A stretch of DNA of 64,000 bases, from positions 1-64,000 of the forward strand of contig CAJVPJ010000032.1 of the NCBI GenBank assembly GCA_910592205.1. Direction: 5' to 3'. Every line of letters starts with the position of its first letter. Positions within the stretch are counted from its first letter, which is position 1. This stretch comes from Paraglomus occultum. Taxonomy: Eukaryota > Glomeromycota > Glomeromycetes > Paraglomerales > Paraglomeraceae. The notes under the pieces are model-generated. The model did not search any database, was not told the DNA's origin, and worked only from the letters and a program-made list of their open reading frames with translations. Both the position numbers and the translations under genes were made by a program. Below, one piece after another: positions 1,829 to 35,334 of this stretch.

Positions 1829-2145
1829 GGCCTGTTTAAATTCTGTTCCGTTCCGTTCTGTTCCGACGGCAAAATTGTATCAACCAATCAAAAATCAGTG
1901 AAAATTGAGAACAAATTTCGCGTTTTCCCGTTCCGTTGTTTTCCTTTTCACTCCAATTTTCAAGTTTTATTCTTTACAAAAATATATGTATATATTTCTA
2001 AAAGCCATTAGAACCCTTTTGCGCAACACAACCATTTATTTTTTACGCTTATTAATAAAACGTGTGTGAGACGAGGATGGAAACAGATAAGAACTGCAAA
2101 TTTGTTGTTCCCTCTGTTTCCGTCATGTGATTTTTAATCCGCCAA
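1829..2145. mobile_element. Truncated copy of the GGCCTGTT inverted-repeat family
   Basis: This stretch begins GGCCTGTTTAAATTCTGTTCCG. Over about 300 bp it is the reverse complement of the complete copy at 17594-17949: both share the CAACCAATCAAAAATC block, a TTAATAAAACGTGTGTGAGA-like block and the GTGATTTTTAATCCGCCAA block. The match stops near 2145, before the second terminus, so this copy is truncated. Confidence 0.7.
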
Positions 2146-2506
2146 GGCACGTATTATGCGTTGAATTCTTGGGTTTCAGAAACAGTTTATTATTATACGA
2201 TCTATAACCAAAAAATAATTGTACGAGAGGTGTGCTTTGAAAGTATTTGACACGGCTTACGATATCAAACGCGATTTTGTTAGCAGTGTACGGTTAGATG
2301 TAAATTATAGTCGTTGCTGTCAATATGTGTGGATCTAATCGTGTGATTACAAGCATTTTTATACCGATTTATCTAAAACTTTTTAATTAAAATCTCTCTA
2401 TTACTATACGATATTTTTCTCAAATCACCTTTAATTGAAGTCATGCTTGAATAATTTTACCAGAAAGAAAATCAAGCAAAGGAAAAAAAGTCCGTAGTGG
2501 GTGCCT

Positions 2507-2571
2507 CGTTTTATACCGATATTTTTGCTGACCAAACTAGTCATATCGGTATAAAACGGTTTGACTGTAAT
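2507..2571. repeat. Hairpin plus a pogo-like terminus
   Basis: CGTTTTATACCGATAT at 2507-2522 is repeated exactly inverted at 2543-2558, a 16-bp stem around a 20-base loop. It runs into GGTTTGACTGTA, which resembles the terminus (reverse complement CAGTCAAA) of the complete pogo-like element at 18523-19083. No partner terminus was found nearby, so this is probably a solitary end. Confidence 0.45.
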
Positions 2572-3165
2572 GACATTTTCTGTATTTGATGTTTGTAATC
2601 ATAGGCATATCACACCAATAAGCGACATTTAATCAACATACTTTATGTAGTTTTATCAACGTAAAATGTGTCTATTTCGAATTAAGTCAGATTGCGTTCG
2701 GGTTAGACTATTTAATATGCTTATTGGTATGGCTAGATTGTTTGCGTAATACAGTTTGCATTTGAATATGACTTTACATTATGTTAGACTGTATGTTGAT
2801 ATTTGTCCAACTAACATACAAGTTGCAATTTGACAGGTAACAAGACAAAAAATTGATCTCATTTATATTAAATATTAATACTTGATAGTAATAGACAATT
2901 GCTCACAAATGCTTCGCTTGCTTGACATTCGTTTCCAAATGTGCGATAATCCATATTTCGATGGTTGGCAGACATTTTCTCTACACTAATGACGATAAAA
3001 CCAAGCAGTCCATTGCATCAATTAGTGCAATTATTATGTTAATGTCGTAAGTAAAACTTGAAAAGATCTAAGAGACGGTTCAGAACTGGTACAACATGAG
3101 TTGACTTTTATCCCGTGCTACCATCGGAGTCACGTAGAAATTAGTCAGAAGCTACCAACAACTTC
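2572..3165. other. Gene-free stretch
   Basis: AT-rich DNA between the repeat cluster and the SPRY gene. I see no coding region, RNA gene or clear repeat here. It probably contains the promoter of the downstream + strand gene, but no specific element can be pointed to. Confidence 0.4.
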
Positions 3166-4819
3166 ATGCCCAGACTTGTAATGCATTCGAGTTTGTTACT
3201 TCTGTATATACTACTCCAATTAAGTTCTGTGCTGTCGATGGGAGGAGGGGGAGGGGGAGGTGGTGGTGGTGGTAGTGGAGGAGGTGGTGGCACTAGTGGA
3301 GGTGGCGGCTTTAGCGGAAGTACTAGTACGTAGTAGTGGTGCAGACACTGGTGGTGCAAGCACTGGTGAAGACTTCCCTACTACTACATATACAAATTAC
3401 AATACTGGTGATGAAGGAGATGGAGGCTCTGACAAATTTAGCATTTGGGAACTTACAGATCTTTTTATAGTAATCGGCTTCCCCGTCTTACGTGGTATAA
3501 GTGCTTTCTGTCTTTCAGTATTGGTCCCACGCACACGTTCATGTCTTTCAATATTGGTCCGACGCATACGTTCATGTCTTTCAAGGTTGCTGCAAAAAAT
3601 CAAATCTATCATAAAACATGTTCTTTTCAAAATTTCTTGTCTTCTTCCCATACAAAAGACAAATACGGTATCAAACCAATAAGTGCAATGATTTCAAAAA
3701 ATTTATGATTCCGCCTTTTGACTGGCAACGCGCAATTCCTACGAATAGTACAACTTCTACGGATAGTAGTCGGGCTTCAACGCCATGCCCCCTATTTGGA
3801 TCTCGAATCTGGTAATATGCCTCCTTTATATGGAACTCAGCCCCCCGCACCTGAGCCTGTCCATTTGTACGGGAAAAAGCATGAAGCAACGACTGAATCG
3901 TTTAAAGCAGGGAATCGTTATATCCAACAACATCCGCCTTAACTAAAACTACCGTCAGAGGAAGTCATAAGTGGTCGAGGTGGTGCGTCGACATATCAAA
4001 TTGTTCCCGAGTCATCGGTTTCCGAGCGTCAGTTGGCGGTCGTCTCAGATAACGGACGTATTGTGCAGTTTAATGAGTCAATAGGCACTATGGTGAGCAC
4101 AATGGTACAGGCAAATTATCCAGTCTTCGTGCTATCAGAAACAGTACCAAAGCCAACCCCTGCACACACGGTAGGTATTACAAGTTCTCGCGTGTGTTAC
4201 ATGCTATCAGCAAACTCCGGCGTCATCCGGAACCGGGGAAAAAGATCCTTTGCCCCTGTTAGTGGACGATCTGACGCCTGACGAATCAAATGAATTGCAT
4301 TACTTTGAGATTACTGTTCTGTCAAACCCAAAGCCTGAAGACACTACAATAGCAATAGGTCTCGCCACAAAGCCTTATCCACCATTTAGGTACATATTCA
4401 CGTCTTTTTGACTTGTTTCACGAATTTCACACATTAACTCTTAACTTTTCTTTACCCTCCTCAATGCTAGGCTTCCGGGTTGGAACCTTTACTCAGTTGG
4501 GTACCACTCTGATGACGGCCGTAAATTCAACGATGCGTATGGAGGTCGCGACTATGGTCCTGAGTGGGGTGAAGTTGGAGACACTGTCGGATGCGGATAT
4601 TATCCAAACACCGGATTTGTATTTTTTACTAAAAACGGGGAGAATATTGGTACCGCATTTACTGGTATGCGATATCTTTGGTATCCTACGGTCGGGGCGC
4701 ATGGCCATGTAAAGATAAATTTTGGAGATGATGGGCCATTTAAATATTGTGAAGCGAGAGGGTTTGTTCCGTCGGGGAGGGAACGTAGCAGCGAGGATAT
4801 GAAAGAATGTTGGTTGTAA
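3166..4819 (+). CDS. SPRY-domain, membrane-anchored protein (SSH4-like); 5' part disturbed
   Basis: The SPRY domain is clear and in phase across two GT-AG introns: exons 3959-4170, 4211-4389 and 4471-4819, ending GRERSSEDMKECWL. It carries the usual HYFEITVLSNP, IAIGLATKPYPP, LPGWNLYSVGYHSDDG and FVFFTKNGENIGTAF stretches. The N-terminal part is less certain. The ATG at 3166 starts a hydrophobic signal-like stretch and a long glycine run, but TAG TAG follows in frame at 3331. A second frame supplies an acidic stretch and a transmembrane segment (about 3450-3520). Another break lies in the C-run near 3790. An in-frame TAA at 3940 can be removed by a 42-nt intron, 3917-3958. SSH4/EAR1-type proteins (lumenal end, one helix, cytosolic SPRY) act in endosomal cargo sorting, and the function here is inferred from that. 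AATAAA-like signals follow the stop. It may be a functional gene with very small introns, or a decaying copy. Confidence 0.62.
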
Positions 4820-5543
4820 ATTGAATAAATGTATTATAAATAAACTTGTTCGGATATCGCATATTTGAGTCGTATCAGTCTACACAACCCTGTCCATACG
4901 TTCAGGTTTATACCCAGTGCGTTGCTGTTGCTCATAGTTTGAAATATGCGTCAATAATTTGCATTATGACACATAATTCGTCAAGTAAATTCCCTTCAAA
5001 AACGAAAATTCTTTCCACATAAGATTAAGTTGTTTCAACAAATCTTTCGTTAACTCGGATATTCCATAGCAATTGATATACAATAATGTCACTTGCCAAA
5101 TGAGAATTTATGAAAAACTTCATTTTGAAGGAGGGGTGGATACTTTCAGACACCATATTTTCTATAAAAAATTGTATATAAAACACTGTATATAATGAAA
5201 CATAAACATCCAGAAGTAGCGTTTTTAGACATGCATAAAAAAGAATGCAACTTAGTGCCACAGCCAATAGATGCCGAATCACGTTCTGCTCCGCTTTAAT
5301 ATTAAACCCCGGATCCGTTATATTCCTGTTTTAATATAAAAGTCTTCTATATTTAAACATTTACAACATACAGTATCCTTTTCTCACATCTATTACGGAC
5401 GGGATTAATTTAAAACTATCTCTAGCACATTCACCTAGTCGTTATGTCTGAATGCCATGCTGTGAATTGCAAATTTTTATCATAATTACGTGATAATCTA
5501 TTTCAGTTACATGACTATATAAGGTACATATTAGGTAAGTATT
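4820..5543. other. Intergenic region between convergent genes
   Basis: The SPRY gene (+) and the giant channel gene (-) end toward each other here. AATAAA-like signals for the SPRY gene lie at about 4824-4848. Nothing else is recognisable. The short minus-strand frame at 5025-5282 lacks coding character. Confidence 0.5.
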
Positions 5544-8500
5544 CTAACTCAGTTTCTTTTTGTGTTTTTCGAGCTTTTTCTCGTATTCTTTTATAGAATC
5601 AGATTTTGCGTAATAATATATTAAGTACGGAAAGAAATCGCGCCGTTGTCTTTGCTTTCGCGTAAGCATACACATTTCTAATTCGCATATGAGCTGTATA
5701 TACAGTCAGAGGTCAGTCAAAATGTTCAAAGAGAAAATAACAAACCGTCACACCACACTAAATATTCGGAATCTGAATTTACCTCTGCTCTTTGTTTAAG
5801 CCAAGCATGCCGACCAACAGTTTTGGCATCACCAACGACGTCGCTCATTAAGGCAATCAAAATGTTCAACAACACAATCGCGGTTATGAATGTGAATGCG
5901 ATTGTCAGAATGGCAATTGTCGGATTGCCGAATGCATCACTGATATTGCCGAAATTGTTTGTCTATTAATAACAATAAAATTAATAAAACGTCTCTGTGC
6001 AATTTATTTGAGAATGCAAGCAGGTTACTTACCACAAAAAAGAAAACCGAAACTAGTGATTCTTGCGGAGTCGCGAATTGGTCTGTAACTGTGCTATTGC
6101 CTACCAAATCTGTAATTTCCGCATAGGACAACAAAAGCCAGTAAATGTGCGTGTATGCAATCACCATCATGGCAATTATGAACATAAGCCCTTGCACTCT
6201 GTTGAATATTTCTATTATCATAAATATTGGTATTCCAAAACCCTTGAACACTCGGAGTCGTAGTATCTATGATAGAGAACGACAGGTTAGTTAAAATTGA
6301 TATTTGGATGCGACATTAATTAATACTTACAAAATTGACATAGACAAAGAACATGGCGCTACCAACGTATTGACGCCTGCTATCGCTTCCGGAAAGTGCC
6401 CCCACAGCGTAAGTTATTGGCAATACGGTACTTGCCAAATCAATCAAATTATATATGGTTACATAATAAGAGTGATATGCAATCAACTGCATCGCCTCAA
6501 GCCCGACAAACATGAATCCCAATAACAACACCACAGATGAGAACAATCTGATCATATTCTCGCTCTCGTTACCCTGTTGCACTCTGTCAGAATCGAGAGT
6601 AACGGCCGTCATGAATGAAGCAAGATACAGGAAATATATACCAGTAAGAACAATGTATCGTATTTTAGCAAATTTCCTCCATTTGAAATTAATAATAGCC
6701 TCCATGGCCGGTTCGCCAAACATATCATATCGACCTTCGAGAACCGAACTAGCAAATGGGGAGAGGTATTTGTGCCATCCAAATACATTCAAAAATCCGA
6801 GACGGGATTTTGGTTGCTTGGGATACTGGGTAAAATTCGGCAAAGGGACAATACATACAACATACGAATGGCTTTCGTTCTATTCAGAGGAAGAAGTTGA
6901 TATTAATAATTATTAAGAAAACGATAAATGCCAAATCAAAGTATATACCCAGAATATTAATATTACCTGATGTTCATTACTAAAAAATCTACTCCATTTG
7001 AAGACTGCACCATCATGCGCATCTGCCTTATACACATCATCGCTGCTTTTCTCTTTATCTGAGTAGGCAAAGTTCTCTCGCTTATTGCTCCATACAGCGG
7101 GCTTGTTTAATTTGAAGTAACTTATATCTTTTACCAATTCCAGAGCAGTGTCAGGGTGTTTTGAACACAGTTGACTGAATGCAGGAACAACAAGTTGCAG
7201 AATCTTCTCGGGGTTGGGCCTACTCCCCGAGTTCCTATTCACCGATCTCATGGCCTCTGAGTCCTTTGCTCTCTTGCAGTAATACTGTAATAATGGACGG
7301 ACTATTTCGGTTCTACCCAACGATATAGCGTAAGAAAGGTCTGACTGACGAGCCTGTTCATCAGTATCATAAAATTTCAGAGTAATTTTTTCTTTCTCCA
7401 CTAATTCTTTAATCAAATTATTGGCTCGTTCACAATCAAATTGCATTAAAACTTTCAAGATTGATCCTTTGCTCCATATCGCTTTTGAATCATCGTTTGA
7501 AGCGCCCCTAAACCAGTGGGCTATACGCGGCCTGTGCTCTGATTCGTCAGTCGATTCAATACTGCCAAAGTCTTCAACGTGTTCAAATACATCGCCATCC
7601 GAAGATGAAAGGGCACGGCGAATAATCCCTTGACACTCGTTCTGAAGCATTTCGTAACGCCGATATTTATCATTCGACCACGATTCATGTTCAAATGAGT
7701 TCAAAAATCCAAGAGCAAACGATGCATCTCGTACTGTATGGAAACTGGCAGGAGCATCCTTACGCGGCAAGTGGAACCTCGTTTTAATGCTATCAGTGGT
7801 GCCTTGCACCTTGTATTCGAAAGCGATAGTAAAGACTTCGTCTGATAGTTTCGTCAATTCTGCCCACTCAATAAAGTATTCTTTAATAAAATCTTTTTCT
7901 CGATTTCGTTGTATAATCGGTCTACACCAAATATATTGCAGAGTTTTACTTTCTGCAAAGTGAGACCATAACTGTATCGTGTGTTTACCAATGAACAATA
8001 CTCGGTCAGTTTCATCATCCAACATGACTGCTGTTCTGACACGGGTCGTGACCCATGGCTCTGTTACAAATTGCTTAACAGAATTAATTACTCCCACTTT
8101 ATAAGGTGTATATGAAATCACTTTGTTACGACCTTTTTCTTCAAAATCATGCCTCTTTATGCCCTTGGAGGAAGCGGGCGGAAGAAGCGACTTTTGCCTT
8201 TTCCCCCCACGACGTGGAGAAACAGGTGGCGGAACAGGTGGAGGAGCAGCAGAAGAAACAGGTGGAGAAACTGGAGGAGAAACGGGAGGAGAAACGGGGG
8301 GAAAAACGGGGGGAGGAACGGGGGGAGGAACGGGTGGAGGAACGGGTGGGGAAACGGGTGGGGAAACAGGTGGGGAAACAGGTGGAGAAACAGGTGGAGG
8401 AGCAGCAGAAGAAACAGGTGGAGAAACAGGTGGAGGAGCAGCAGAAGAAACAGGAGGAGAAATGGGGGGAGAAACAGGTGGGGGAGAAACAGGTGGGGGA

Positions 8501-11500
8501 GAAACGGGGGGAGACACAGGTGGGGGAGAAACGGGGGGAGACACAGGTGGAGGAGCAGCAGAAGAAACAGGAGGAGAAATGAGGGGAGACACAGGCGGAG
8601 AAACCTTCCGTTGTTTCGTTTCCACGTCTACAGGTGTTGCAATAGACTCCGTACTTTCAACTATCTTCACGATTGGTTTCACATTTTCTGATGGCGTTTC
8701 ATTTTCGGTGAACCTAGATTCCTGATCGTTCTCAACAGTGTTCTCGAATGGATAATTTCCTGATTCAAAAGATCCGACAGGGCTCATTTCAGTTGACCCA
8801 TCATCATCGAATCCATATCTCTCGGCAATAAACTTCTGGGCGCACTCGAGAACCTCTTTCTCCAACTGAATATCGTTTCGCAATTGAGATTTCAACCAAG
8901 ATCGTGCTTTAACAGAACTATCATACCAAGAGTCTTTAAAACCATCGGCAACTAGTTCCCAATACTGCAACGTTACCGCAGTGGCCCTAACTCTGTCTTC
9001 AATGTCTTTCATACGTCCACTACTGAAATAATCCTCTAGCTCTGCAGAAAACTCTCCTGAGTTTTTGAATTCAAAGAGGTTAGCTGTCTTTCCGTTAAGA
9101 AGAAAAAAGCCCGGTTTTGATTGATACTTCAGAGACCGCCTAACAGTTCGTTCGATAGCTAAATGCAATAGTTGTTAGATCAAATGACTGAATCGATCCA
9201 CGCATATTTCAAAAACTAGAGGCAAAAAAAAAAAATTACCAGACGGATGCAAAACGTTCTCTTCTTCTTCTTCTTCTTCTTCAGCAAGAGTAACGTTAAA
9301 CGTATCGATGACAAGTTTTCCCGCAACTTTGTATAAATTCTCTTCTACATCGACGAAATGAACTTGAGAACTAATCCACAGCTCCGAACTGTTAACGGGC
9401 AGCGTCCATTCGCTTTTGAATTTTTGGCAAATAATCTTAACAAACGTGATGATTAAAGCTATGGACCAAACGCGCACGTTTACGGACATTAGTTGTTTGT
9501 CAGTCATAATGCGCGTTGCTAGGGCGTGGAAAAGATCTGACGCAGATTCAAAATTAAAGCAGAGAGCCAGGTTGTTGCTAACCTCGAAAGCACTAGCGCT
9601 AAATGTCATGCCGATAAGACGGTACAAGTCATCGATGTTAATAGTGTCCTTGCTTAAATGGAAGTGGTCACTTTCAAATCTAGTAGAATAGAATTGAGCT
9701 TCAACTCGTAGCACGCACTTAGACCCTCCTGGAAAATTGATTGTTTCACTTTTTTCTAAGGCTTGTCTCCTATTATATCGTCCATCTGAATTGTGCGTGA
9801 TCAATTCACTTAACGTTAATGAAAAAACTCCAGCACTAATATCAGTCAATTTTTTATCGAGAATTTCGAGAATGAGCTGGCCCTTTGCATTGCGTACTGG
9901 GACGCAATGTACTCCGCAAACGTTGTTGGCCGTGTATGCAGGCGTCCCTTTGTTGGCGGTTCCCTGCGCATTAACCTTGAAGATGCGAACCCCCATACTA
10001 CCCGATAAAACGATATCGTTCATTTGATCAATTTTGATTCTTAGGATGCCAACTACAGTAGCGTCACTTTCATCGTATTCATCTTCGTATAGCTCATTAT
10101 CATCTAACTCATAGTCATCGTCATATTCAAAATCTTCAAATCCATCATCCTCTTCAATATCGTCAAATTCATCTTCGTCTTCAAATTCTTCATCGACCTC
10201 CTCCTCTTCTTCAGGTTTGGTTTTCTTACTTGTCTTGAAAGACAAATCCTTAGTTAAAGTCTCTTCATCAACTTTATAACGGCCACAGACAAATGTGCGC
10301 GCTCGCTCGAGCAGTTCCTTTTTGACTTTCTTGTCGCCAATTTGCGCGCTTAACCACACGGAAGACTTTTTATAAGCATCTGCCCACTTGTCACGGTGAT
10401 CAACCAGTACATAGCGGAAGTACCATTGAAGGACTGCTGTGACATATATGTTCTCACCAACGCTAACGAAATCCGGTGAGAAGTAAGCTCGCAAATTTTC
10501 TCGCGCAGCTTCTGTTGACTCGTATCCGAGAAGTTTTGCAAGACGATCATCGAGCACGTAAAATCCTTCTTCAGTTTGGTACGAAAGTATACGGCGGATA
10601 TCTTGATTAGAAACAAGTGTTGTTGTATATCCTTCGGCTTTGTCAGTCTGACTCTCGCTCTCGAGAACGTTGAATTGTTTGACAATTATGCTCTTTGCTT
10701 CTTCATATAATTGTTCTTCAGTTTCTATATCGTTAATTGATTCGGTAATCCAATTTTCCGCCTTTATGTATGATGTCAGCCATTCTATTTCGTGTTCCGA
10801 CAAGACAATCTTAAAAAATGATATGACAAAAACCGAGACAATGATGGATTTGTCAAGTGACTCGAAATTCTCCTGAAATGGTTGGATCAATTCCTCGATG
10901 GTTGAAAAGTTAAAAAGCTTGGCCAAGCAATCATCAACTTCAAATGATCCTGTCTGACTCTGTAGAGACAAGATGAAATAGAGACGATCTAGGCCAATAG
11001 AGGGAGCGTCTAACACTTCTCTCAAATAGTCGTCGCCAAGAGAGATAAATTCCACGTCAAATCGAAGTCGACCAGTAACATTACTCTTATATCTTAAATC
11101 AACATCTCTTTTCTCACGCCTGGCTTCATTTGTTTCACAAGCTCGAACCACGACTTTGTCAACATCCAGAATGCACGCGCCCAACGGAACATTCTTAAAG
11201 AACGCATTATAGTCGTTTACTTTCAATTTTAGTTTCTTTTGCTGGTCATACAACGGGATATAAAAGACTTGCTTCCAGACGGGTTTTTTACTATTGTACA
11301 CAATTTTTGTCTCACCGTAACTCCATTCGGTAGCTAAATCGGCAATCGTGACGTATGGATCCGAGTCTCCACCTGCCGACCAAAATAAACCGAGCGCCTG
11401 ATCGATGGTTGCACTGTCGATATGCAGACGTATTACGCCGATTGGGTTAGACGTGCCTATACAATTTACTTGGGAAGTTAGAATTTCCAAAAAAAAAAAA

Positions 11501-14500
11501 AAATTACGTCTCGCCTGACTTTCGTAGCACGCATCACCACATACCAACTAAAGCCTTATCCTTTCCAGATTGAATTAATTTCTTCCTTTCCTCGAATGAC
11601 GCTTCGAACTGAGTATCCATGCTCAATATTTCATCGCCAATATTGTAAAGTTCCCTTACGAGTGACTTTGTGAGCTCGAATGCGTTCTTTTCAATCGACT
11701 CGCTAGCTTTAAACTGAGTGTATAACCATCTGTAGGCGGTTTCATACAGGGGCTGCCATTCGGTTTGATCATCAGTTGCTACTAAACGCCAAAAAAGGAG
11801 AATAAACACGGTGGCCCAGGTATTAGCATTCATACGCGACAATCTGCTTTTCAAAGGCTTATGTTTGAGTCTCATGATTGCTGAGCGGAAACGTTCTTCG
11901 CTGTCGAATCCAAGAGACGAGGCAAGCTCATTGTTAATAAAGAAAGCGCCAGTTTCTTGCTGGTTTTTGTAAATAGTCTCAATACGAGCTTTGTTGATGC
12001 TGGTCTTGGGAATAGTAAAAGGTGCTTCAAGCCTTGCGGCAACGTTTGGGTATTTCTCAAGAATAAACTTTTTGGCACCTCTGAAAACATCAGCTTCTAT
12101 TTGGGCGTTCCCTAGTTTACTATCCAGCCAGGCAGACAATTTTTTATAATGTTTATCCCAGTAGCTCTTGTAGTCAACAGCTACCAATTTCAAATACATG
12201 GCGGTAATCGCAGAAATTTGAACTTTCGAGCCGACTTTGCTCGCAAAAGAGTTGCCAAAGTATTTTTCCAATATCGTAATTCCATAGAAAGCAGCGATTC
12301 CGTCGGTGAAAGGAAACGAGCCAGTTTTGGATTGAAAGGTGAGTAATCTTGTAACGGTTCTGATGGTGATGTCTAGAAAACAAGGCGTCAATAATTAATT
12401 CAACGGATTATGGTTCAGTAATACAAGTCAGTACAGATTATATTTCATTTACCGGGTTGCACTTTAGTATCAATGCTCGTAACTCCGAATCTATGCATAA
12501 CGAAATCTATCGCTACCTTTGCTAAGTGATTACACAAGTCAACGTCATAAAGCTGATGGGCAATCCATGTGCGCAATTTAGCGACATACGACTCCCATTC
12601 GGTTTTAAATCTCGAACAAACGAGTCTCATGTAAGCAATCACAAGAGCAGTGGCCAATATGCGGTTATCTCCGTCAAGCTTAGCAATCTGGTTCTCATAA
12701 ATGTCACGATTAGGAATCTTGTTGTGCCACTTTTTAAACTCTGTCAGCAACTTTTGATTGTCTTCAAAATTGAAAATCTGTGCCAGTCTGTCATCAAAAT
12801 CATACGACCCGTCCGAACGCTTCCACAAAATAATTGCGTAGAGATGGCTGATCTCTATGTTCTGTTCGCTGAATGTAATGTCTCTGTCAATTGTCAGACA
12901 ATTCTTCGGGATGAATTGAGCTTCTATATGAATTTCAATCCCAGTATCCCTACCATCAACACTCTTAATTTTCTCCCATCTATCAATGTCTTCTATTTTT
13001 TCAATCTTATTCTTTGTAAATAGTTCATTGAAATGCAATTCGTAGGAACCAAGATGAGCTTGCGTGATAAATAGATTCCTCTTGTTTACACGGAAAGTAA
13101 TCTTGTCGCTCGATCCAGCCACAGGAACATAATGTACGCTTTCGGTTTTTTCAGATGACGTTATTATCTTGGTGATTTCATTCTCGGCGGCGTCAACAAT
13201 GGTGACAGAAAGACCCGATTGAACCCATCCTTTGTCTTTTGAGTATTCCTTGATACAATTAGACGTGACAGTGAGAACAAACAGACCCTGACCATTGACA
13301 TATGTTTCAACGGGTGGTTCATGATGCTCGAATTTCCCGTTCTCAGTCGGTTTTCCGGCCGGTTCTTTATATTCGTCGTCAGAGTCAATACCATCGTCGG
13401 TTTCGTCGTCTTTCTCTGGGAGCGTAGGTATCGATTTGTTTTCAATCGGATTATCTTCTTCGTCGACGTCCTCGTCGTCCTCGTCTTCAGATCTACGCGG
13501 TTTGTTGATGAATGGAAATTGCTTGCCATAGTTAGCGTACGCACCGCTGCCTGTTGGTTGGAATACTGACTTTGGCTCTATATGTACATATTCGTCAGTA
13601 ATGGCCATACAAGTGTGAACGTCGCGTATTTGCATTCCACTTGCGTTAATTATCATTACAGATTGATCCCCGCTAATCCACATTATGCTTGTCTCTCCCT
13701 TGGTGTCGTGGCTTGCCGCCGTCGCAGAGGAAAGTATGGCGCCACCGCCTTCGCATGAAAAAATTGCAAGTGTTCCTTTTGAAGTCCATGCTGCAAGCAT
13801 TTGTTTATTATGGGAAAGAGCAAAAGCGACCGGTTCTTCATCACCGTTTAGGAAAGAATCACCTGCCGGGCATCGAATGGAAGTTATCTGTTCATATTCA
13901 GATATCGACCACAGTGATGCTAATCTCCACTAAAATAGTAAAAATTGATAGTCAGCCCTTCCAATCGAAAAGCAGCAAAAACGAACGATCGTTTATACTC
14001 ACGTCCTCCACGCATACAAAATAGTCTCCGAGCATTGAGTTCTTCAAAAATGTCATTTGATCCCACGGATTAAATATGCGTTGCAGACTATTTGCGAGTT
14101 TGTCGCAGATGTCAGAAATGTCGTTTCTTTCCAATGTCCAATTGCGTGTCGAAAAGACATAAAACAATTTCTTTCTTGTAACAGAGTCATGCACATTGCA
14201 CACAATGAGCTTTGTATTGTCAGAGGAAAACCTAATTGCTCCTTTTAGATTCATCAAAGTAGGCTCAAGTACAGGGCGCGTATTGCTAGTGTCGACGACA
14301 TATGTGAAAAACTTGGTAGCATCAGTTTTGAGTTCAAACGGTACTGGATCTTCCAAATCCTGTGGAAGTCTAATCGTGCTTAGAGCTACAAAGCTACCTG
14401 CAAAGCATAATAGTCTCGATATTAGTTCGAATGGTTTATTTTGTCGGGCATACAATCGACCTGACCTTACCTTTATTCGACAATGCAAAATCAACGTTGC

Positions 14501-14762
14501 TCATCAATTGTTTAGAATTGTTTGATGTGTCAAAACTTGTTCTCTCTATTTTATATTCTCCTTGCTTTAAAGCAGTGTCATTGTTCTGCCAATCGTATGT
14601 TTTTCCTTTTTTCTCTAGCGTAGCTACATTCCATATAGTTATTATACCCTCGGTTGCCGAATATGTGGCCAAATGGTTTCCATCTGGTGAGAATGTACAT
14701 GCGTCCACCAGCCTAGGTGGTGGCCTTTGAGGGTCAATGTCAATTCGAGTATCATTCATCAT
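5544..14762 (-). CDS. Giant WD40 / C2 / repeat-module / TRP-like ion channel
   Basis: Ten exons keep phase throughout: 14471-14762, 14003-14397, 12453-13929, 11545-12372, 9240-11456, 6967-9158, 6331-6879, 6033-6266, 5783-5962 and 5544-5693, giving 2,837 residues. Order of parts (approximate residues): WD40-like N-terminus (CTFSPDGNHLATYSATEG, 1-370); acidic linker (375-417); C2-like (442-570); three ~110-residue modules (580-975); C2 with DSDPYV and KKPVWKQVF (1000-1140); two modules (1150-1395); acidic tract (1412-1460); C2-like (1463-1592); two modules (1600-1850); Pro-Val-Ser tract (1920-2050); a further propeller-like stretch and a helical region; then six hydrophobic helices with a pore-like loop before the last helix (about 2540-2770) and a basic C-terminus. 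The channel part resembles TRP/ion-transport proteins, so a membrane cation channel is inferred. C2 domains suggest calcium or lipid sensing, but the calcium-binding aspartates are only partly conserved. The first ATG is used because the frame is open from there. Confidence 0.85.
8217..8610 (-). repeat. Coding minisatellite: Pro-Pro-Val-Ser tract
   Basis: Variants of the + strand units GGTGGAGAAACA, GGGGGAGAAACG and GGAGCAGCAGAAGAAACA are tandemly repeated for about 390 bp. On the coding strand they give PPVSPPVSPPP and PPVSSAAPP blocks, close to residues 1920-2050 of the channel protein. Units are multiples of three, so length changes would keep the frame. The tract joins the last repeat module to the C-terminal propeller/channel half. 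Confidence 0.85.
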
Positions 14763-22235: not shown

Positions 22236-24424
22236 ATGGACATGTCAGGAAACAACAGGGTAAGTTTGGCATTCAATAATAATAAGCTTTCACATCATGA
22301 AATGAATTAACAACTTGGAATACAACTTATTTTAATATTCTATTACTAGGAAATTGGACAGCAATTCTCTTCAGGTGCAAAAAACAAAGGGAAGGGATAA
22401 TGCAGAGACTGAAGATGCATTTAATATTGAGCAAGATCTCATTGTCTTTGAAAGTGACAGTGATGATGATGATTACCATAGACAGATATTCACAACACAT
22501 CTGAGCAAGATGGAATTAAATGAGCAACTATCTGCAACTTTGGAGTCAATTGTCAACAGTACTGACAGAAGCAGTCATCTTATTAAATTATCCAATCTGT
22601 TGCAATCATTTGGTAATAAGTTAGAGGGCACTCAGTTGAGAAATGTTTTGGAAACAATTGGAATTTATGTCACATATAAGGACTATGAAGTGACTGCTGA
22701 TGTTGAATTGGAACTGCACCTTAGGACATATTAATATGTATTAGTTTTAGAAACATATGGCAAGTGACTTGTTAAGATGGAGACAGAGCTACTTGAAACC
22801 TTGCATAAAAATTGTATGATATCCATCAGCATTATACCAAGGTTATAGAAAAAGGCTTACAATGTTCAAAGATTTTGCTTGTTACTTCAGAGGAGAGTGT
22901 TAAAGTTCAAAATTACAACAATGATTTTTTACTTATTATTATGCAGCTTCATAACACTCTTTATTTGATGGATGATGATAAGACTGTTTGGTTTGAAATT
23001 ATAAACCAACTTAAAGGTTTTTTTACTTCATTAGTTGAGGCTTTACCTGATATGACAGGTGTTATGACAACTATGGAAACTCCAATTGATAACGAATTTA
23101 CTATTACTATTACAATCTATAATAACATTCAAGAAGCTCTACAATCTAAGTTCTCTGTAGGGCATTGGTATAAAGAATGGAGATATTTATATACTATTTA
23201 TCAAGCATTTGTTGAATGGTCAGCTGCTCCAATTAATAGAAATTTGGTTGCTAAAGGGGAATTATAATTAATCATTATTAAGGATCTGTGGAGATTTGGA
23301 GACCAAGAGTGGAATAAAGCAATTTTAGCAAAATCTGGAATGAATAGAAGAATTATGTCAGATTATATTTCAGGATCAGTTTCATATACATTATTGTTTG
23401 GTATACTAATACTGGATATTGTTCAAAATTTGATAATATCTACAAAAAGTCTAATACATTGGCTCACTGTTACTATCTTGCAAAACTAGCTCTGGACATT
23501 GTGAGGATGGAATTTATTCAGTTTAAAGCGATGGAAGTTTTGGTGATGCTGCATAAAAAAGATTCAACCACATTTTCTGTTGTGCAAATTGATCTAGACC
23601 AACACATTGAAAAATTTTCAACTTTAAACCAAGATAAAAAAAGGCTTCAAGACATAAGAAGATATATTGATGAAAAATATACTTATGTTAATCAAGCAAG
23701 TGGCAGAACAAATATTGGAATGCCAATCTTCAAACAAAAAGCACATAAACCCAATCAGCCATCTGATACTGAAGAACTTCTTGACTCAAATCCAAATGAT
23801 TTATTAATTTTAGACATAATTGCTGACCATCTTACATGTCAATTCACACAAGAAGTTACTGATGATTTAGAATACTTCCATGCAAACATAAAATCAGCCA
23901 TTTGGTATTAGAGACATTTATGAGAATGAACTGCCTTGAACTGAAATGTTTTTATTGTAGAAGAAAATGTCAATTAGATAAAACTGAAAAATTGCCAAGC
24001 TCACCAATTATGAAAAATTTGTCAAAGCAGGACATATTGCACCAAGTACAAAAGGCAAATCAAAAGGCTTTACAGCTATTACTATTGTGGCAAGTCAGGA
24101 TGGTGATGATGATGATGTTGAGGAGGCTTCTATTATTAAATCCAAGTTTTTGTATATGCTTCAAATGAGACCAAAGCAAAGTATTCTACAATTATTGAGG
24201 ATGCCATTAAGTCTGCATAACACTTACAAGCAAGGCAAGAAAGCTCTTGATGAAAAAAGATATGATGATGCAGTATTATGGCTTGAAAGGGCACTCATTG
24301 ATTATCCTGACAATTCAACTATTCAAATTGACCTTGCTGTTGCATGTATGGAAAATTTAAATTATAAAAAATGTTATGATTACATAACAATGCCAGAGCA
24401 TGGGCTTGGTGTGGAAAATATTAT

Positions 24425-26281
24425 ATGCAACAATCAGAGTACAAACAAGCTCTTAAAGATCTTAAACAATCATTAAAAATTGATGCAAATGATACACTTG
24501 CATTAGAAGTCAGGGGTAATGTCTATTACATTCTTACCTGGTATGAGTTGGCATTGGCTGAGTTCAATCAACTATTGGATATTAAACCAAATGATACAAA
24601 CACACTGATTGCAAGGGGAGCTGTCTATTTTAATATTTGTCTGTATGCAGATGCATTAGAAGACCTTAATAGAGCATTACAAATTAAACCAACTGATACA
24701 ATAGCACGACATCTAAGGGGGCATGTTTATCTCATGCTTGAGCAATATGACTATGCATTAAATGATCTTGATGACTCACTGGGAATAGATCCAAGCAATA
24801 TGTTTATCCTAATGGAGAAGGGAATTATCAGACATGTTAATCAATATGGTAATGCATTGGAGAATTTGGATAAATTTTTAAATGTCAATCCAGATCATAT
24901 ACTTGCATTAAAAGTAAGAGGGAAGATTTATTATGGACTCAAACAATATAGTAGTGCATTAAATGATTTCAACAAGTCATTAGAAGTCCAATCAAAGAGA
25001 AATGTAGACACACTAATACTAAATATGAGAGTAGCTATCTATCTTGATCTTTGTCAATATAACAAAGCACTAGATGACATTTGCAGGTCATTTAACATCA
25101 AACTAAATGAAACTCTTCACAAACAATTATTATCTTTGTTTGGTCAATTGGAAACACAAAATCAACACTTATTATTAGATTTTACAGAACATCAAATACA
25201 ACATGCTGGTGCCATTATTTTAGCAAAAATTTTAAACTCAATTTCCTCTCTGACTTCATTGAATCTGAATTCTAATCAAATTGGAACTGCAGGAGCAACA
25301 GCTTTGGCAAAGGCTTTACAATCAAATTCCTCTCTAACTTCTTTGGATCTCTATGCTAATCAAATTGGAGCTACAGGAGCAACAGCTTTAGCAAAGGCTC
25401 TAGAATCAAATTCCTTTCTGACTTCATTGAATCTTAGAGGTAATGAAATTGGAGCTACAGGAGCAACAGCTTTGGCAAAGGCTCTAGAATCAAATTCCTC
25501 TCTGACTTCATTGAATCTTAGAGGTAATGAAATTGGAGATACAGGAGCAACAGCTTTAGCAAAGGCTCTAGAATCAAATTCCTCTCTGACTTCATTGAAT
25601 TTTAGAGGTAATGAAATTGGAGCTACAGGAGCAACAGCTTTGGCAAAGGCTTTACAATCAAATTCCTCTCTGACTTCATTGGATCTGGATTCTAATCAAA
25701 TTGGAGATACAGGAGCAACAGCTTTGGCAAAAGCTCTAGAATCAAATTCCTCTCTGACTTCTTTGGATCTTTACTGGAATGAAATTGGAACTGCAGGAGC
25801 AACAGCTTTGGCAAAGGCTCTAGAATCAAATTCTTCTCTGACTTCATTGAATCTGAATTGTAATCAAATTGGAGCTACAGGAGCAACAGCTTTGGCAAAA
25901 GCTCTAGAATCAAATTCCTCTCTGACTTCATTGACTCTCCAAAGGAATCAAATTGGAGCTACAGGAGCAACAGCTTTGGCAAAGGCTCTAGAATCAAATT
26001 CCTCTCTGACTTCATTGACTCTCCAAAAGAATCAAATTGGAACTACAGGAGCAACAGCTTTGGCAAAGGCTCTAGAATCAAATTCCTTTCTGACTTTTTT
26101 GGATCTTTACCAGAATGAAATTGGAACTGCAGGAGCAACAGCTTTGGTAAAGACTTTACTATCAAATTCCTCTCTGACTTCATTGACTCTCCAAAAGAAT
26201 CAAATTGGAGCTACAGGAGCAACAGCTTTAGCAAAGGCTCAAGAATCAAATTCCACTCAGATTCTTAAATATAAATTCTAA
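24425..26281 (+). CDS. Intact TPR plus LRR frame at the 3' end of the decayed gene
   Basis: A 618-codon open frame. The first 220 residues hold about six tetratricopeptide repeats of 34 residues, with the typical pattern ALxDLxxxLxIxPxDTxxLxxRGxVY; one unit near 24830 is shortened. After a linker come 12 leucine-rich repeats of 28 residues of the ribonuclease-inhibitor/NLRC3 type, with core LTSLxLxxNxIGxxGATALAKAL. Both are protein-interaction scaffolds with no catalytic residues. There is no signal peptide or membrane helix. The ATG at 24425 is only the first one in this frame, and the upstream decayed segment suggests the original protein was much longer. Whether this frame is expressed alone is unknown. 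Confidence 0.6.
   Translation: MQQSEYKQALKDLKQSLKIDANDTLALEVRGNVYYILTWYELALAEFNQLLDIKPNDTNTLIARGAVYFNICLYADALEDLNRALQIKPTDTIARHLRGHVYLMLEQYDYALNDLDDSLGIDPSNMFILMEKGIIRHVNQYGNALENLDKFLNVNPDHILALKVRGKIYYGLKQYSSALNDFNKSLEVQSKRNVDTLILNMRVAIYLDLCQYNKALDDICRSFNIKLNETLHKQLLSLFGQLETQNQHLLLDFTEHQIQHAGAIILAKILNSISSLTSLNLNSNQIGTAGATALAKALQSNSSLTSLDLYANQIGATGATALAKALESNSFLTSLNLRGNEIGATGATALAKALESNSSLTSLNLRGNEIGDTGATALAKALESNSSLTSLNFRGNEIGATGATALAKALQSNSSLTSLDLDSNQIGDTGATALAKALESNSSLTSLDLYWNEIGTAGATALAKALESNSSLTSLNLNCNQIGATGATALAKALESNSSLTSLTLQRNQIGATGATALAKALESNSSLTSLTLQKNQIGTTGATALAKALESNSFLTFLDLYQNEIGTAGATALVKTLLSNSSLTSLTLQKNQIGATGATALAKAQESNSTQILKYKF
25240..26256 (+). repeat. 84-bp LRR-coding tandem array
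   Basis: Twelve direct units of 84 bp, each coding one LRR. Blocks such as TCAAATTCCTCTCTGACTTC and GGAGCAACAGCTTTGGCAAA recur almost unchanged at the DNA level, including third codon positions. Variation is concentrated in the few codons just after SLxL, on the concave face. This indicates recent amplification or ongoing gene conversion. Confidence 0.9.
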
Positions 26282-30124: not shown

Positions 30125-33100
30125 TTATGTACGTGCTTCATCTGAACGCTCAGATCGCTCGAGTTTATCATAAAGCGTGATGAGTTTCGTGGGCGCTATT
30201 TGAGCAGGCCAGAAATAAGTGACAAATGTCCACAAGTATCTACGCCAACGAGTTTTCTCTGCGTCTGAACGTTTCTCATTAAGAATTTCTCCAATACGGG
30301 CACCTATAGTTCGAACGCACTCTTTAAGTAATCGCGCCTTTTCTTTGCCCGTATAGCGAACCGAATCCTGGATAAGAAATAGATATTGAGCCATTGGTTG
30401 TATAAACGCCGCCACAAACGTAACGACTATATACATACCTTCTTCAACTTTTGCAAATACTTTCTAACTGGTCTTAAAAGTTCTTTACACGTCTTCTCCT
30501 GTTCCTCATCCAAGTCTTCAAATTCATCGTCAGAAGATTCTACCACTTCAACAGATGCTTTGGGTTTCTTTCGAGATGATGGCGAACCTTCGTCTGGAAT
30601 ATTCGATTTTCGCTTTGATGCTTTCGTCGTAACATTGTCCGGAGGAGTGGCTGATGCTTCTTGTGAAGCTATGCGTATCTTTATCCTTCGGCTCTGAAAG
30701 ATAGAAGAAGAATACATTAGATTGACACGTTCATCGGGACATTGTCCACGCAAGTCTTGTGAGATAATACGCACTTTTTTCGGTGTATGTTCTTCTGACG
30801 GTGCTTCACGCAAGACTTTCATTAGATACTCTGCCCTTCTTACAACTTTTGCCGTCTGTTTAGCTGACGTGTTTTCTTCTTCGGTCTCTTCCTCGCTAAG
30901 TTTTTTCGCAAGACCAAGAGAGGCGTCTTCCCGTATAGCTCGCCAACTGCCAAATCCATGTTTATATATACCAGCCATTAGCATCGCATCTTCTTTCTGG
31001 CCCCAGTCACAGTGCCAATTATTGACAGGCTTTAATGGAACGTTGAAACGGAATTTCTCGAGATTTGGCACTTCTGCAAATGACATTATACGGAGGCGTT
31101 AACGACAATCGAGTTCTGGTTGATTAAAAGAAAAAACAAAACTACTTACTACTAAGCTTCTCATAGAGAACATTAAGATCGCCAACACGTTGTATTAACA
31201 ATCCGGCATTTATCTTTTCAACATTATTGTATGAGGTATGGATAGCTTTTGCTCGAGCATTAGTTCCGCCATTAACGGAATCATGATCACGGACAGCCTT
31301 TTCCGCTGCAGCGTATATCTCGTCGTATACCTGTAACACTAATTCACGTTCTTTGTCTTGCAAATCTGCGTCTCGAACTACATCGTCATATCGCTGATGA
31401 GGATTACCAAATTTCAAAATACCGCGTATTAAGGCACGGATTTCCTTTTGCGTCAATTCAGGTGAAGCTGATTTCTTTCTCCCAGAAACCTACGAGATAG
31501 AATGCACAATCATTTATAACGTTTGGAGAGAAAATAAAAACCATAATCGTCTGCGTATCGACAATTTCGAAACTGCTTTATACCTTTTGTTTCTTGACAC
31601 CCTTTCGGCTGTGCGTCTTCTCCTTGGCTGCACGTTTTAACCCGCCCTTATTTTCATATTCTTCGTTCTCTACGACCGGTTTCGCTTCAGGTATTAAGGA
31701 TTCTCCATTAGCCATCTTCTTCCTTTCCTCTTCTGGAATTATCTCCTCCCATGACATATCTGTACCACCATAGTCTGCCACTTGAAACTGCTTCAGAAAC
31801 TCTTCCCCGCCAAAACTCGAACTGACTCCATCTCCCACTGTATCATGCGTCTCGGCACGAGCGAGGATGTCATCGAGGTCCATGTCATCTAATTTCTTTT
31901 GGCCTTCGGTCTCTTTGAACATATTTTGAGCTCCGAATTTGAGGATGGCGCTCAAATCTTCTCGACTAAAATTGTCGGGCTTTGACGAGGTAGCTTTATC
32001 TTTCTTTTGTAAAAGAGATTGGCCTGAAGTGTCCATTTGCTTGATGATACAGTATTCGAGAACCATCTTGCGTTTTGCACGTTCGAGGATACTTTCTTCG
32101 ATTGTATCTTTTGTAAGAAAGCGATATACGTTTACGTGATTTTTTTGACCGATACGATGTGCCCGAGCCATTGCCTGCAAATCATTTTGCGGATTCTGTA
32201 CGCATAAACGTATTCATAAAAAAAGAAAGTTTAGCACATTTACAGCAATAAATAAATAAACATTGAAAGCTGTATACTAACCCAATCAGAATCAAATATA
32301 ATCACAGTGTCTGCCGTATTCAAATTAATTCCAAGACCTCCTGCCCTTGTTGACAACAAAAATATAAAGTCAGGAGATCCTGGAGCATTGAAATGCTCAA
32401 TAGCCTTCTTACGCGCCTCTGACCCGATTCCCCCATCAAGGCGTTGATGAGGGTAGCCACGAAGACGAAGATAGTCTGTTAAAATGTCCAACATTCGAAC
32501 CATCTGAGAAAATATGAGTACTCTATGATTAGATTCCCGCAGTCTCTTCAGTAGTTTGTCTAACAAGACCATCTTTCCACTGTTCATGATCAGACCACGC
32601 AGTTGTTCTTCACGACTAGTTGTCCAACTCTCGGCATTGGGAAACAAATAAGGGTGGTTACTGGCTTTCTTTAGTTCCACTGCAATATTAAGCAGACTCA
32701 TCTGAGACGAGCCTCTGACACCGTCATTTAGAACATTAAAGTTCTTTGTGAGAATGTGCTTGTAATAGTGCATCTGCAGTGGTGCCAACTCGACTCGAAG
32801 TATGCGCTCCGTTTTCTGGGGAAGAGATTTCTCAACGTCCTTTTTCAACCGTCGCAACATGTAAGGCTCAAGACTCTTGTGCAACTCTCTGATCTTGGCT
32901 TCCTGTTCCTCATCAGGAGCTCCGAGATCAATGTCAGATGGTAACTGGAAATCAGGCATTAAAAAGTTTACTAACGAACAAAGTTCTTTTACGGAATTTT
33001 GTAAAGGTGTTCCTGTTATCAATAGCCGGTTTACTGTATGAAACTCTGACAATACTTCATGTAGTTGTGATTCACTGTTTTTTAGTCTGTGCGCTTCATC

Positions 33101-35334
33101 GACGGCAAGGTATTGCCATTTTATCGATCCAAGCTCTTGTCGATCTTTCAGGATAAATTCGTAGGTAGTTATTAAAACGTTAAACTTTGGACGTTTCGGC
33201 GAAGATTGGAGATAAAACTCGTATTCCCGAATGACCTCGCGACTAGCCGATGAACCAATGTACACTATAACATTCAAATCTGGAGCCCACGTTTGAAATT
33301 CTTGCTGCCATGACGCTATTGTGGATAGCGGAACGACAACAAGAAACGGACCGTATTGGTTATGTGTGTGGAGGAGGTAGGAGAGAAAGGAGATTGTTTG
33401 TATGGTTTTACCAAGACCCATCTGTTTTAATGAAGAATTGAGGAGAGCATTTCGAATAAATATCGGGTAAAAGGGTCTGAGAAAGCAACAGTATCATGTA
33501 CAGAAACAAATACAAACCTCATCCGCAAGTATTCCATTTTCGTTCTTTGACCAAAGATGAGCCAGCCAATTCAAACCAGTCAATTGAAAATCTCTCAATT
33601 CTCCGCCGACGATGTACGGTGGTTGTTCTGTTATTCGTTTGAACGTGGGTCTCTTCTGAGTATGAGGTTTACTTTTGTGTGGCAGACGCTGACTATTATT
33701 CCTATCCAAAAACGCATCGATTTCAGCTTGAAAGTCCCTCTGAATTAATTCCGCGCTCTCCCACGTGCAGTCACTATACGGCAACCGCTTCCATTTACAT
33801 AGATACTCGTAATTCCTGCCCGTTGTACTCCCTCCAGGGGACGATACCCTCGTGGCTATTATCCTCTCAATAGTCTTATAGTCCTTCAATGTGTCACGAG
33901 CCATCTCCCGACGTACATTACATGTTTCAACGTCCTCCGCGTTTGTTGTCTCTTGCAACATTTTTTGTTCCATTAGGTGATTCTTGATATAATTTTCTAG
34001 CTTTTTAAAGCCTTTGAAGGTGCGGAGGTTGTTGTATGTGTCCCATGTGTCGTGAAGGTGTGACCAGCCTTTCCATTTTATAAGAAACTCCATATTCGTC
34101 TTGGGGTCATCCGACTCGACCGGGTCAGAGACTTCCTTACGGCGTATATCGTGTATACTTTCTATGGCGTCTCCCTCTTCTGATAATGTTATGGTTTGGG
34201 ATTGTTAGTAGATGACGCAAAGGTAATCCATCACGTTTAACATAAACCTTGGTAGTACAAGCCAAGCATGATTAATGATTAAATAATGATCTATGAACTA
34301 GTGTACTGAGTAACAAATCTTTCGCTTTAACTAAACATACATTCTGCATCATAATCATTCTTCATCATGACATATACAATGTAATATTTACCCTCTTGTG
34401 CCGCATCGTATGCGCCATCTATTTCGTCATCTGACTCGACCAATTCTTTTAGTTGCTTGTCTAAAAGATCTTCATTATAGCTTTTTACAGTACGCGCACG
34501 CCGAGAATACCGCTCGTGTTGGTAATAGTTTTCTATGTTATATACGCGACGACTGTTCTTCTTTGTATTTGTTCCCCAATCGTCGTCCCCAGTTACGACA
34601 GTCTTGTGCTTTTTGGGTCTTTTCTGTAATGTATTCTCCTCGGCATCTTCGTCTAACGAGGAGGAAAGGTCGTCGGAAGGATGAGAGTCAGATGCCTCAC
34701 CGTCAGGAAACCAAGTCATCTCTTTTCCTGTCGTTAGTGAATCGCGCGGAGAGTGTGTGATGAAATGGAGAGAAGGGTATTGAGCGAAAGGTTGATGAAA
34801 TGGAGAGAAGGGTATTGAGTGAAAGGTTGAGTAAAAGGAGGTAGTAATTGGGAGTAAAGGAAAGGAAAGCAAAGGTTGGAATGAAATGGGGTATGGATGT
34901 AGAGATGAATGGATGAAATGGACAAAAAAAAAGGTGTGATAAGTATGTTGTCCGAAATCATAAGTCAAAATGTTTGTCAGGACCAATACTGACTATGCTT
35001 CTTTCGCGTCCTCAGGATGGAATTGCGATCTATAGAGTTTCTCGTCGAGTTTGATTCTTCCCCATCTGATGAAGATAACTGTGTGTCGAGACAGATCAAT
35101 GGATGAAGGAAACTGTCGTTGAGTGTGTTTTCATACGATAAAATGTTTAGAAACATCAATAAACATGATGAAATCATTTTTATTAATCATTACTCTGTAA
35201 TTTATTCGATTTGGTTTACTTCGGGCAGACCTCCGTAGGCCGTATAATTCTGGGTCCAGTTCGTAAATGTCTCCTGGACCTAAACGGTAGATTTGTTGAA
35301 AATTCATAAGCGAGATATTAAAGCTGGTTAGCAT
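30125..35334 (-). CDS. CHD1: CHD1-type chromatin remodelling ATPase
   Basis: Nine exons keep phase: 35194-35334, 34994-35078, 34392-34727, 33518-34179, 32282-33421, 31584-32195, 31150-31489, 30439-31073 and 30125-30367, coding about 1,397 residues, normal for fungal Chd1. Order: acidic N-terminus with [10 protein letters not shown]; two chromodomains ([14 protein letters not shown] and [15 protein letters not shown]); SNF2 ATPase with ADE-MGLGKT (Walker A, across an intron) and VDEAHRLKN (DEAH box); helicase C-terminal half with [11 protein letters not shown] and [20 protein letters not shown]-binding region; and the C-terminal CHD1 helical domain (WRRYLWTFV). Chd1 spaces nucleosomes over transcribed genes in the nucleus. 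The second intron (34728-34993, 266 nt) is unusually long and holds a tandem repeat. The ATG could also be the one nine codons downstream, or lie in an unseen upstream exon, since CTAACCAG just before 35334 looks like a splice acceptor. Confidence 0.93.
34761..34830. repeat. 35-bp direct repeat inside a CHD1 intron
   Basis: Two nearly identical 35-bp units, beginning TGAAATGGAGAGAAGGGTAT, lie in tandem inside the 266-nt second intron of CHD1, which accounts for part of its extra length. Partial units (GAATGGATGAAATGG) continue toward 34920. Confidence 0.7.

Follow-up and report, generated by a model that had tools for sequence, protein, structure and literature searches.

We analysed the first 64,000 nucleotides (positions 1-64,000, here called the window) of contig CAJVPJ010000032.1 from the Paraglomus occultum assembly GCA_910592205.1. 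A predicted gene on the reverse strand of the window encodes a protein of 2,837 residues, in which a TRPV-like channel is combined with a block of C2-like domains and repeated modules (Table 1). The gene was rebuilt as ten exons, reading from 14762 to 5544, with all joins in phase, and the nine introns are 64-89 nt long and run from GT to AG. There is one stop-free frame in each of the ten exons, exon 10 holds the final stop only, and the chosen frame of exon 5 contains no stops as compared to 35 and 84 in the other frames. An original prediction for this stretch had described one gene of ten in-phase exons and this protein length, and the rebuilt single-gene model, from which message and protein are predicted, is the same. 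The block was expected to comprise about 1,500 residues; it is present in the middle of the protein with its C2-like domains and seven modules, but measures about 1,400 residues (440-1858).

Exon 3 (492 codons) is unbroken from the WD40-like part through the first C2-like domain, C2a, and the first module, M1. Similarly, exon 6 (about 731 codons) is unbroken from the last module, M7, through a Pro/Ser-rich linker and into the stretch before the channel. Because the boundaries between the WD40-like part and the block, and between the block and the channel, are located inside these two exons, they were not made by splicing. Exons 4 and 5 are of phase 1 at both ends, so that skipping of either or both would keep the frame.

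Table 1. Predicted gene and its parts, with positions in the window
Feature	Position	Strand	Evidence
Whole gene, ten exons, 2,837 residues	5544..14762	-	Rebuilt model; same order in C1220/C615, partly in C1265
Host N-terminal WD40-like part, residues 1-372 (exons 1, 2, start of exon 3)	13501..14762	-	Weak Pfam WD40/propeller matches; aligned with C502, C496
C2a, degenerate C2 domain, residues 444-570, in the exon of the WD40 part	12907..13287	-	C7 C2 profile
Module M1, residues 589-715	12472..12852	-	Module profiles
Block intron, phase 1, M1/M2, residue 722	12373..12452	-	C1220 same residue; C7 723 or 715, phase 1 (two stretches aligned)
Module M2, residues 728-832	12041..12355	-	Module profiles
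Module M3, residues 852-968	11633..11983	-	Module profiles; tree partner C7_08
Block intron, phase 1, M3/C2b, residue 998	11457..11544	-	C1220, C1265 same residue; C7 1000, phase 1
C2b, C2 domain, residues 1004-1136	11041..11439	-	
Module M4, residues 1156-1263	10660..10983	-	Module profiles; helical bundle in model; tree partner C7_09
Module M5, residues 1284-1395	10264..10599	-	Module profiles; helical bundle in model; tree partner C7_10
C2c, degenerate C2 domain, residues 1467-1588	9685..10050	-	C7 C2 profiles; beta sandwich in model
Module M6, residues 1608-1721	9286..9627	-	Module profiles; helical bundle in model; tree partner C7_11
Block intron, phase 1, M6/M7, residue 1737	9159..9239	-	C615, C1265 same residue; C7 1727, phase 1
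Module M7, residues 1742-1855, in the exon of the second host half	8803..9144	-	Module profiles; tree partner C7_12
Pro/Ser/Val-rich repeat linker	8214..8605	-	Direct reading
Host second half, propeller-like and helical, possibly ankyrin-like stretch, residues 2085-2467	6967..8115	-	Aligned with C502, C496, C615, C1265
TRPV-like six-helix channel, pore and TRP-like helix, residues 2468-2837 (exons 7-10)	5544..6879	-	Profile against TRPV1; hydropathy

The two ends of the protein appear to belong to one host, a TRPV-type channel gene with a WD40-like N-terminus. A profile of six channel family members from this genome, including a damaged copy on contig C1265, matched TRPV1 with an E value of 1e-10 over positions 48-335 of 372, in an alignment that spans S1 to the TRP helix, and the six-helix channel part was also read from hydropathy. 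The same profile matched 133 PDB sequences at E ≤ 1, and the best 60 of these 133 are TRPV (one named Osm-9-like TRP channel 1), TRPM5 or TRPA1. None of the six family members matched Pfam Ion_trans at E up to 10, and the contig of the window, C32, is absent from the 16 Ion_trans matches in the genome. The channel is called TRPV-like here, rather than being assigned to TRPV, and is predicted to conduct cations. The WD40-like part remained below the Pfam cut-off (PF00400, E 0.027; THOC3 propeller, E 2.5e-4). No ankyrin repeats were identified by Pfam in the window exon or in three pieces of paralogues, and a weak Ank_2 match was obtained in C502 only (E 0.023, below the cut-off). The WD40/TRP-type host foreseen in the original prediction holds up, with a WD40-like part that is weak by Pfam, a channel that matches TRPV1 and short paralogues of the same layout. 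In the profile searches proposed as a check, Ion_trans had no match, WD40 stayed below the cut-off and C2b alone among the C2-like domains exceeded it.

Channels of this kind had been expected in Glomeromycotina. In the part of the source available, Rhizophagus irregularis is described as having 32 TRPV-like genes of predicted Ca2+ permeability, placed at the level of Mucoromycota (PMC10234402), and TRP-CC channels are seemingly duplicated in Glomeromycotina (PMC8778642, also available in part). The host family is therefore already known. The expectation fits these 32 genes, as well as the finding that the fungal FAS1 family PF08354 has no match in this draft assembly, which agrees with the reported loss of fatty acid synthase in arbuscular mycorrhizal fungi (PMC10234402, in part). 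A missing match in a draft does not prove that the family is absent.

The seven modules of the window protein are 105-127 residues long. A profile was built solely from 13 modules encoded on another contig, C7. M1-M7 scored 76-119 bits with this profile, and the highest score among 1,200 shuffled sequences was 10.3 bits. The matches listed, down to 7.3 bits, include no other part of the window protein. One C7 module used as a query had 38 matches in the genome (E ≤ 1). Among them are the seven window modules, with M1 the weakest (E 0.0018), and three weak matches on C1377, C1118 and C759 (E 1e-4 to 0.005). VIT domains (PF08487) are located on five contigs, C400, C1118, C759, C1377 and C424. 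Three of these five also have a module match, which is on the strand of the VIT domain and follows it, at a distance of 2.2-2.5 kb from the closest VIT match upstream; C400 and C424 had no module match among those listed. With the module profile, the C-terminal stretches of the three VIT genes scored 44.6, 40.0 and 36.1 bits; the corresponding scores with the C7-only profile were 41.6, 38.3 and 33.7 bits. A further weak module match was observed at C889:6381-6542 (E 0.004), on a contig without a VIT match.

To judge from the two profiles, the seven modules are relatives of the C-terminal domain (CTD) of VIT-vWFA proteins of the VWA5A type. This gives measured kinship to the earlier hint of VWA-associated repeats, and the seven modules of about 110 residues are borne out. 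According to the available part of PMC10539598, the CTD of human VWA5A comprises 101 residues, the CTDs of VWA5A and Vwa1 are predicted to be helical bundles docked on vWFA, and this docking may autoinhibit the VIT-vWFA protein. In the structural model of exon 5, M4, M5 and M6 are helical bundles of about the length of the VWA5A CTD. The module profiles had no match below E 0.1 among PDB sequences, and a Pfam search of 23 modules gave a best E of 0.0086, none being convincing. The window protein, searched as five pieces that together cover it, gave no match to Pfam VIT or VWA at E ≤ 10.

The C2-like domains were scored with a profile built solely from four C2 domains of C7, for which the best of 600 shuffled sequences reached 8.3 bits. 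C2a, C2b and C2c scored 61.9, 115.7 and 45.8 bits, respectively, and C2c scored 55.0 bits with a profile of the two second C2 domains of C7. All three domains of the original prediction are therefore far above the shuffled sequences. The C2 fold was confirmed for C2b, and the fold comparison of the exon-5 model bears almost solely on this domain; C2c was modelled as a beta sandwich. By their sequences, C2b is a true C2 domain, and C2a and C2c are degenerate C2 domains.

The gene was compared to its relatives in the same genome (32.3 Mb, 1,408 contigs). A channel query gave 33 matches; those that were close represent six copies of the gene (C32, C615, C1265, two on C496, and C502), with weaker matches on seven more contigs (C1, C156, C13, C243, C830, C869 and C968). 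A query of two modules gave 32 matches on five contigs (C32, C1265, C7, C1220 and C615). In C502 and the two C496 genes there is no block, and the WD40-like part leads straight into the second half of the host and the channel. As placed by a purpose-written spliced aligner, the host introns common to these three genes and the window gene are located at residues 98 (phase 1) and 229, 2467, 2650, 2728 and 2788 (phase 0), and residues 230-2467 form one exon in C496b. The shared host introns and the block-free paralogues therefore place the block inside the third exon of the host, in a linker that is a few tens of residues long. An intron in C502 at residue 2197, across which the frame is open, is probably an artefact.

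Other relatives contain the block. C1220 covers query residues 3-1195, to the end of its contig, and C615 covers residues 1505-2835, from the start of its contig, with 70% and 77% identity, respectively, over the aligned codons. Together they look like one second long gene of the same order, apparently split over two contigs. C1265 contains the WD40 part, then the core encoded by exon 5 (C2b-M4-M5-C2c-M6), then the host, and is without C2a-M1-M2-M3 and M7. The number of modules is three in C1265, seven in the window gene, and at least seven in C1220 and C615 together, one of which is cut by the contig end. The additional introns of the block-bearing genes are all of phase 1 and recur at residue 722 in C1220, at 998 in C1220 and C1265, and at 1737 in C615 and C1265.

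Some smaller features of the paralogues were also noted. In C1220, a further module, of the M5 type, is encoded at positions 8576-8905, ahead of C2a and within the open frame that also encodes the WD40-like part; three small introns placed between 8555 and 8882 were rejected as artefacts of this extra module, which is absent from the query. At C496:8026-10240 a third WD40-like start lies beside the two short channel genes, and is possibly a remnant; its spliced model was patchy and unreliable and was not used. The linker at 8214-8605 of the window is shorter in C615 and hardly present in C1265, and its repeats leave several frames open on both strands.

The modules and C2 domains of the block have counterparts on C7. 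A gene region at 43-58 kb of this contig has no channel match and contains strong C2 domains, which exceed the Pfam cut-off (two in each of two units scanned), and 19 module hits, six of which fall within the second of two exact tandem copies. In a module tree of 31 rows, M3, M4, M5, M6 and M7 group with C7_08, C7_09, C7_10, C7_11 and C7_12, respectively, which are the modules at the matching places of the second unit of C7, in the same order. The ultrafast bootstrap values at the joining forks are 98, 93, 97, 95 and 96. The C7 introns that precede C2b or separate M6-type from M7-type modules are of phase 1, like those of the window gene, and the counterpart of the intron at residue 722 aligns at 723 or 715. 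These results point to probable capture of the block from a C7-type gene; transfer in the reverse direction appears less likely, given that the modules of the window gene are nested in the C7 series.

Two features of C7 were observed in addition. The segment C7:48072-51834 has an identical copy at a spacing of 4,238 bases, representing either a recent duplication or an assembly error. Furthermore, C7:55701-57809 encodes a repetitive, S/T/H-rich tail, close to the end of which DUF3759 matches weakly (E 5.5e-5, below the cut-off).

Taken together, we consider it likely that the window gene is one TRPV-type channel gene with an in-frame captured piece of a C7-type gene that acts as a docking arm. 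A contiguous genomic piece of the C7-type gene, introns included and reaching from mid-exon to mid-exon, would have entered the linker in the third exon of a host with a WD40-like N-terminus, in frame, and the number of modules would have changed after the capture. The N-terminal half is cytosolic in TRPV, and the arm, located in this half, would be cytosolic too. The pore would open to cations, C2b would probably provide a membrane or protein contact that is mostly independent of calcium, and the seven CTD-like modules would probably dock on the vWFA domains of VIT proteins or on one another. Such an arm would serve to position or cluster the channel and might adjust its gating, and skipping of exon 4 or 5 would give isoforms with shorter arms. 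We infer the direction of capture, the cytosolic position of the arm, its role in docking or tethering and its effect on gating from the features described above.

Several observations weigh against this explanation. In the tree, the fork that joins M2 and its C1220 partner with C7_12 and M7 is weak (87/59), the fork of M4 is not starred, and M1 groups solely with the M1 of C1220. C7 contains an extra module between the positions of M2 and M3, which share one exon in the window gene. The C7 introns align at 1000 and 1727, compared to 998 and 1737, in loosely aligned linkers, and the C7 alignments contain several other small introns that resemble artefacts of the aligner. About 310 residues are unseen between C1220 and C615, which are separate contigs, and the model of C1265 (about 1,836-8,243) contains one in-frame stop and three frame breaks, this copy being probably decayed or poorly sequenced. 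The docking of the CTD on vWFA is itself a published prediction (PMC10539598, in part), and the gene model is predicted from DNA sequence. Structure prediction, which had been proposed as a check, supported the beta sandwich of C2c and the helical bundles of M4-M6; the domain arrangement in the exon-5 model is unreliable (predicted template modelling score, pTM, 0.44), and the model of the host exon is poor (predicted local distance difference test, pLDDT, 54.3), with no Foldseek match at E up to 0.001.

The modules could instead bind each other, so that the arms would cluster channels into arrays with no VIT-vWFA partner. We regard this reading, which overlaps with the docking part of the captured-arm explanation, as possible but unlikely. 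There are many copies per subunit, and arrays are also present on C7; TRPV channels are tetramers, which would give 28 modules per channel. However, the published contact of a related CTD is with vWFA, by prediction (PMC10539598, in part). A more speculative version of docking, which we find rather doubtful, is that the arm is a free-standing array of VWA5A-type CTDs that would capture VIT-vWFA proteins in trans and release their autoinhibition. The channel would thereby have its own signalling hub, made from the captured piece of a giant C2/CTD gene, and skipping of exons 4 and 5 would set the number of docking modules.

It had also been proposed that the protein could couple calcium or membrane binding to gating. 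For calcium, the C2 domains would be the binding sites. A calcium-sensing arm would be in line with C2b being a true C2 domain, with the DPY loop that is kept in the C2 domains of C7, and with the predicted Ca2+ permeability of related R. irregularis genes (PMC10234402, in part). However, the DPY loop is lost in C2a and C2c, and C2b contains N at the loop-3 places where synaptotagmin has D. Of the five Asp ligands of synaptotagmin-1 C2A, at the positions we take them to occupy, about two are left in C2b. Calcium coupling through these domains is therefore improbable.

A chance insertion with loss of function or decay of the gene, or a chimeric assembly, would be consistent with the stop and frame breaks in C1265 and with the exact tandem duplication in C7, which could be an assembly error. 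However, there is no internal stop in the window gene or in the models of C615 and C1220, and the ratio of nonsynonymous to synonymous substitution rates (Ka/Ks, Nei-Gojobori counts) over the block is well below 1, at 0.244 against C1220 (755 codons) and 0.377 against C615 (341 codons). The corresponding values are 0.342 for the WD40 part, 0.070 for C2b, 0.312 for the part before the channel and 0.195 for the channel, and the highest were obtained for C2c (0.454) and M3 (0.406). This suggests that the block is under purifying selection, unlike a dead insert, and makes decay or a chimera very improbable. Finally, two or three adjacent genes (WD40, C2/module and channel) wrongly fused are highly unlikely: introns are present at 12.4, 11.5 and 9.2 kb, and C7 carries a C2/module gene region with no channel match, but the WD40-to-C2a-M1 and M7-to-second-host-half joins each lie within one exon, the short paralogues assign both flanks to one host gene, and the boundary introns keep their residue and phase in C1220, C615 and C1265, as far as these reach, those near 12.4 and 9.2 kb, where separate genes might have ended, being of phase 1 and also found at or near the same places in C7.

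Compared to TRPV channels, the window protein has the same six-helix channel and TRP-like helix, but differs by its WD40-like N-terminus, ankyrin repeats that are weak at best, the lack of a Pfam Ion_trans match and the block of about 1,400 residues in its middle. With VIT-vWFA proteins (VWA5A/BCSC-1 and Dictyostelium Vwa1) it has in common a helical domain related to their C-terminal one, with 105-127 residues as compared to 101 in VWA5A (PMC10539598, in part), but it has no VIT or vWFA, contains seven copies rather than one, mixed with C2 domains and inside a channel, and is not a member of that family. The C7 gene region has the same C2/module units in the same order and phase-1 introns at or near the same places, but no channel match, more modules, C2 domains over the Pfam cut-off and the S/T/H-rich tail. 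The fold of C2b is that of ferlins, extended synaptotagmins, MCTP and other multi-C2 proteins. We know of no channel pore or CTD-like modules in these proteins.

The layout looks new, although its parts are of known kinds, and no channel with both C2 domains and VWA-type modules was found in a literature search that was mostly without subscription papers. The origin of a mosaic ion channel can be followed here in one 32-Mb genome, which contains the host, the donor-type gene, block-free relatives and mosaic stages that are full, apparently full in two pieces, and reduced to the core. The gene connects VIT-vWFA proteins with TRPV-like channels, of which an arbuscular mycorrhizal fungus is reported to have many. 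The partners of VIT-vWFA proteins are poorly known, and the modules offer a direct binding test for the C-terminal domain of VWA5A.

The window also contains other coding features. A SPRY domain is located in the adjoining stretch at 4445-4816 (+), with an E value of 3.7e-12. An open frame of 633 residues at 24380-26278 (+) contains TPR repeats followed by leucine-rich repeats, and pieces of a CHD1-like remodeller (chromo, SNF2 and CHD1 HTH) were identified at 30430-34204 (-). Further along are an LCAT-like piece at 46210-46959 (+), an ABC transporter frame of 1,283 residues at 51675-55523 (+) and a C2H2 zinc-finger frame at 59935-61218 (-).

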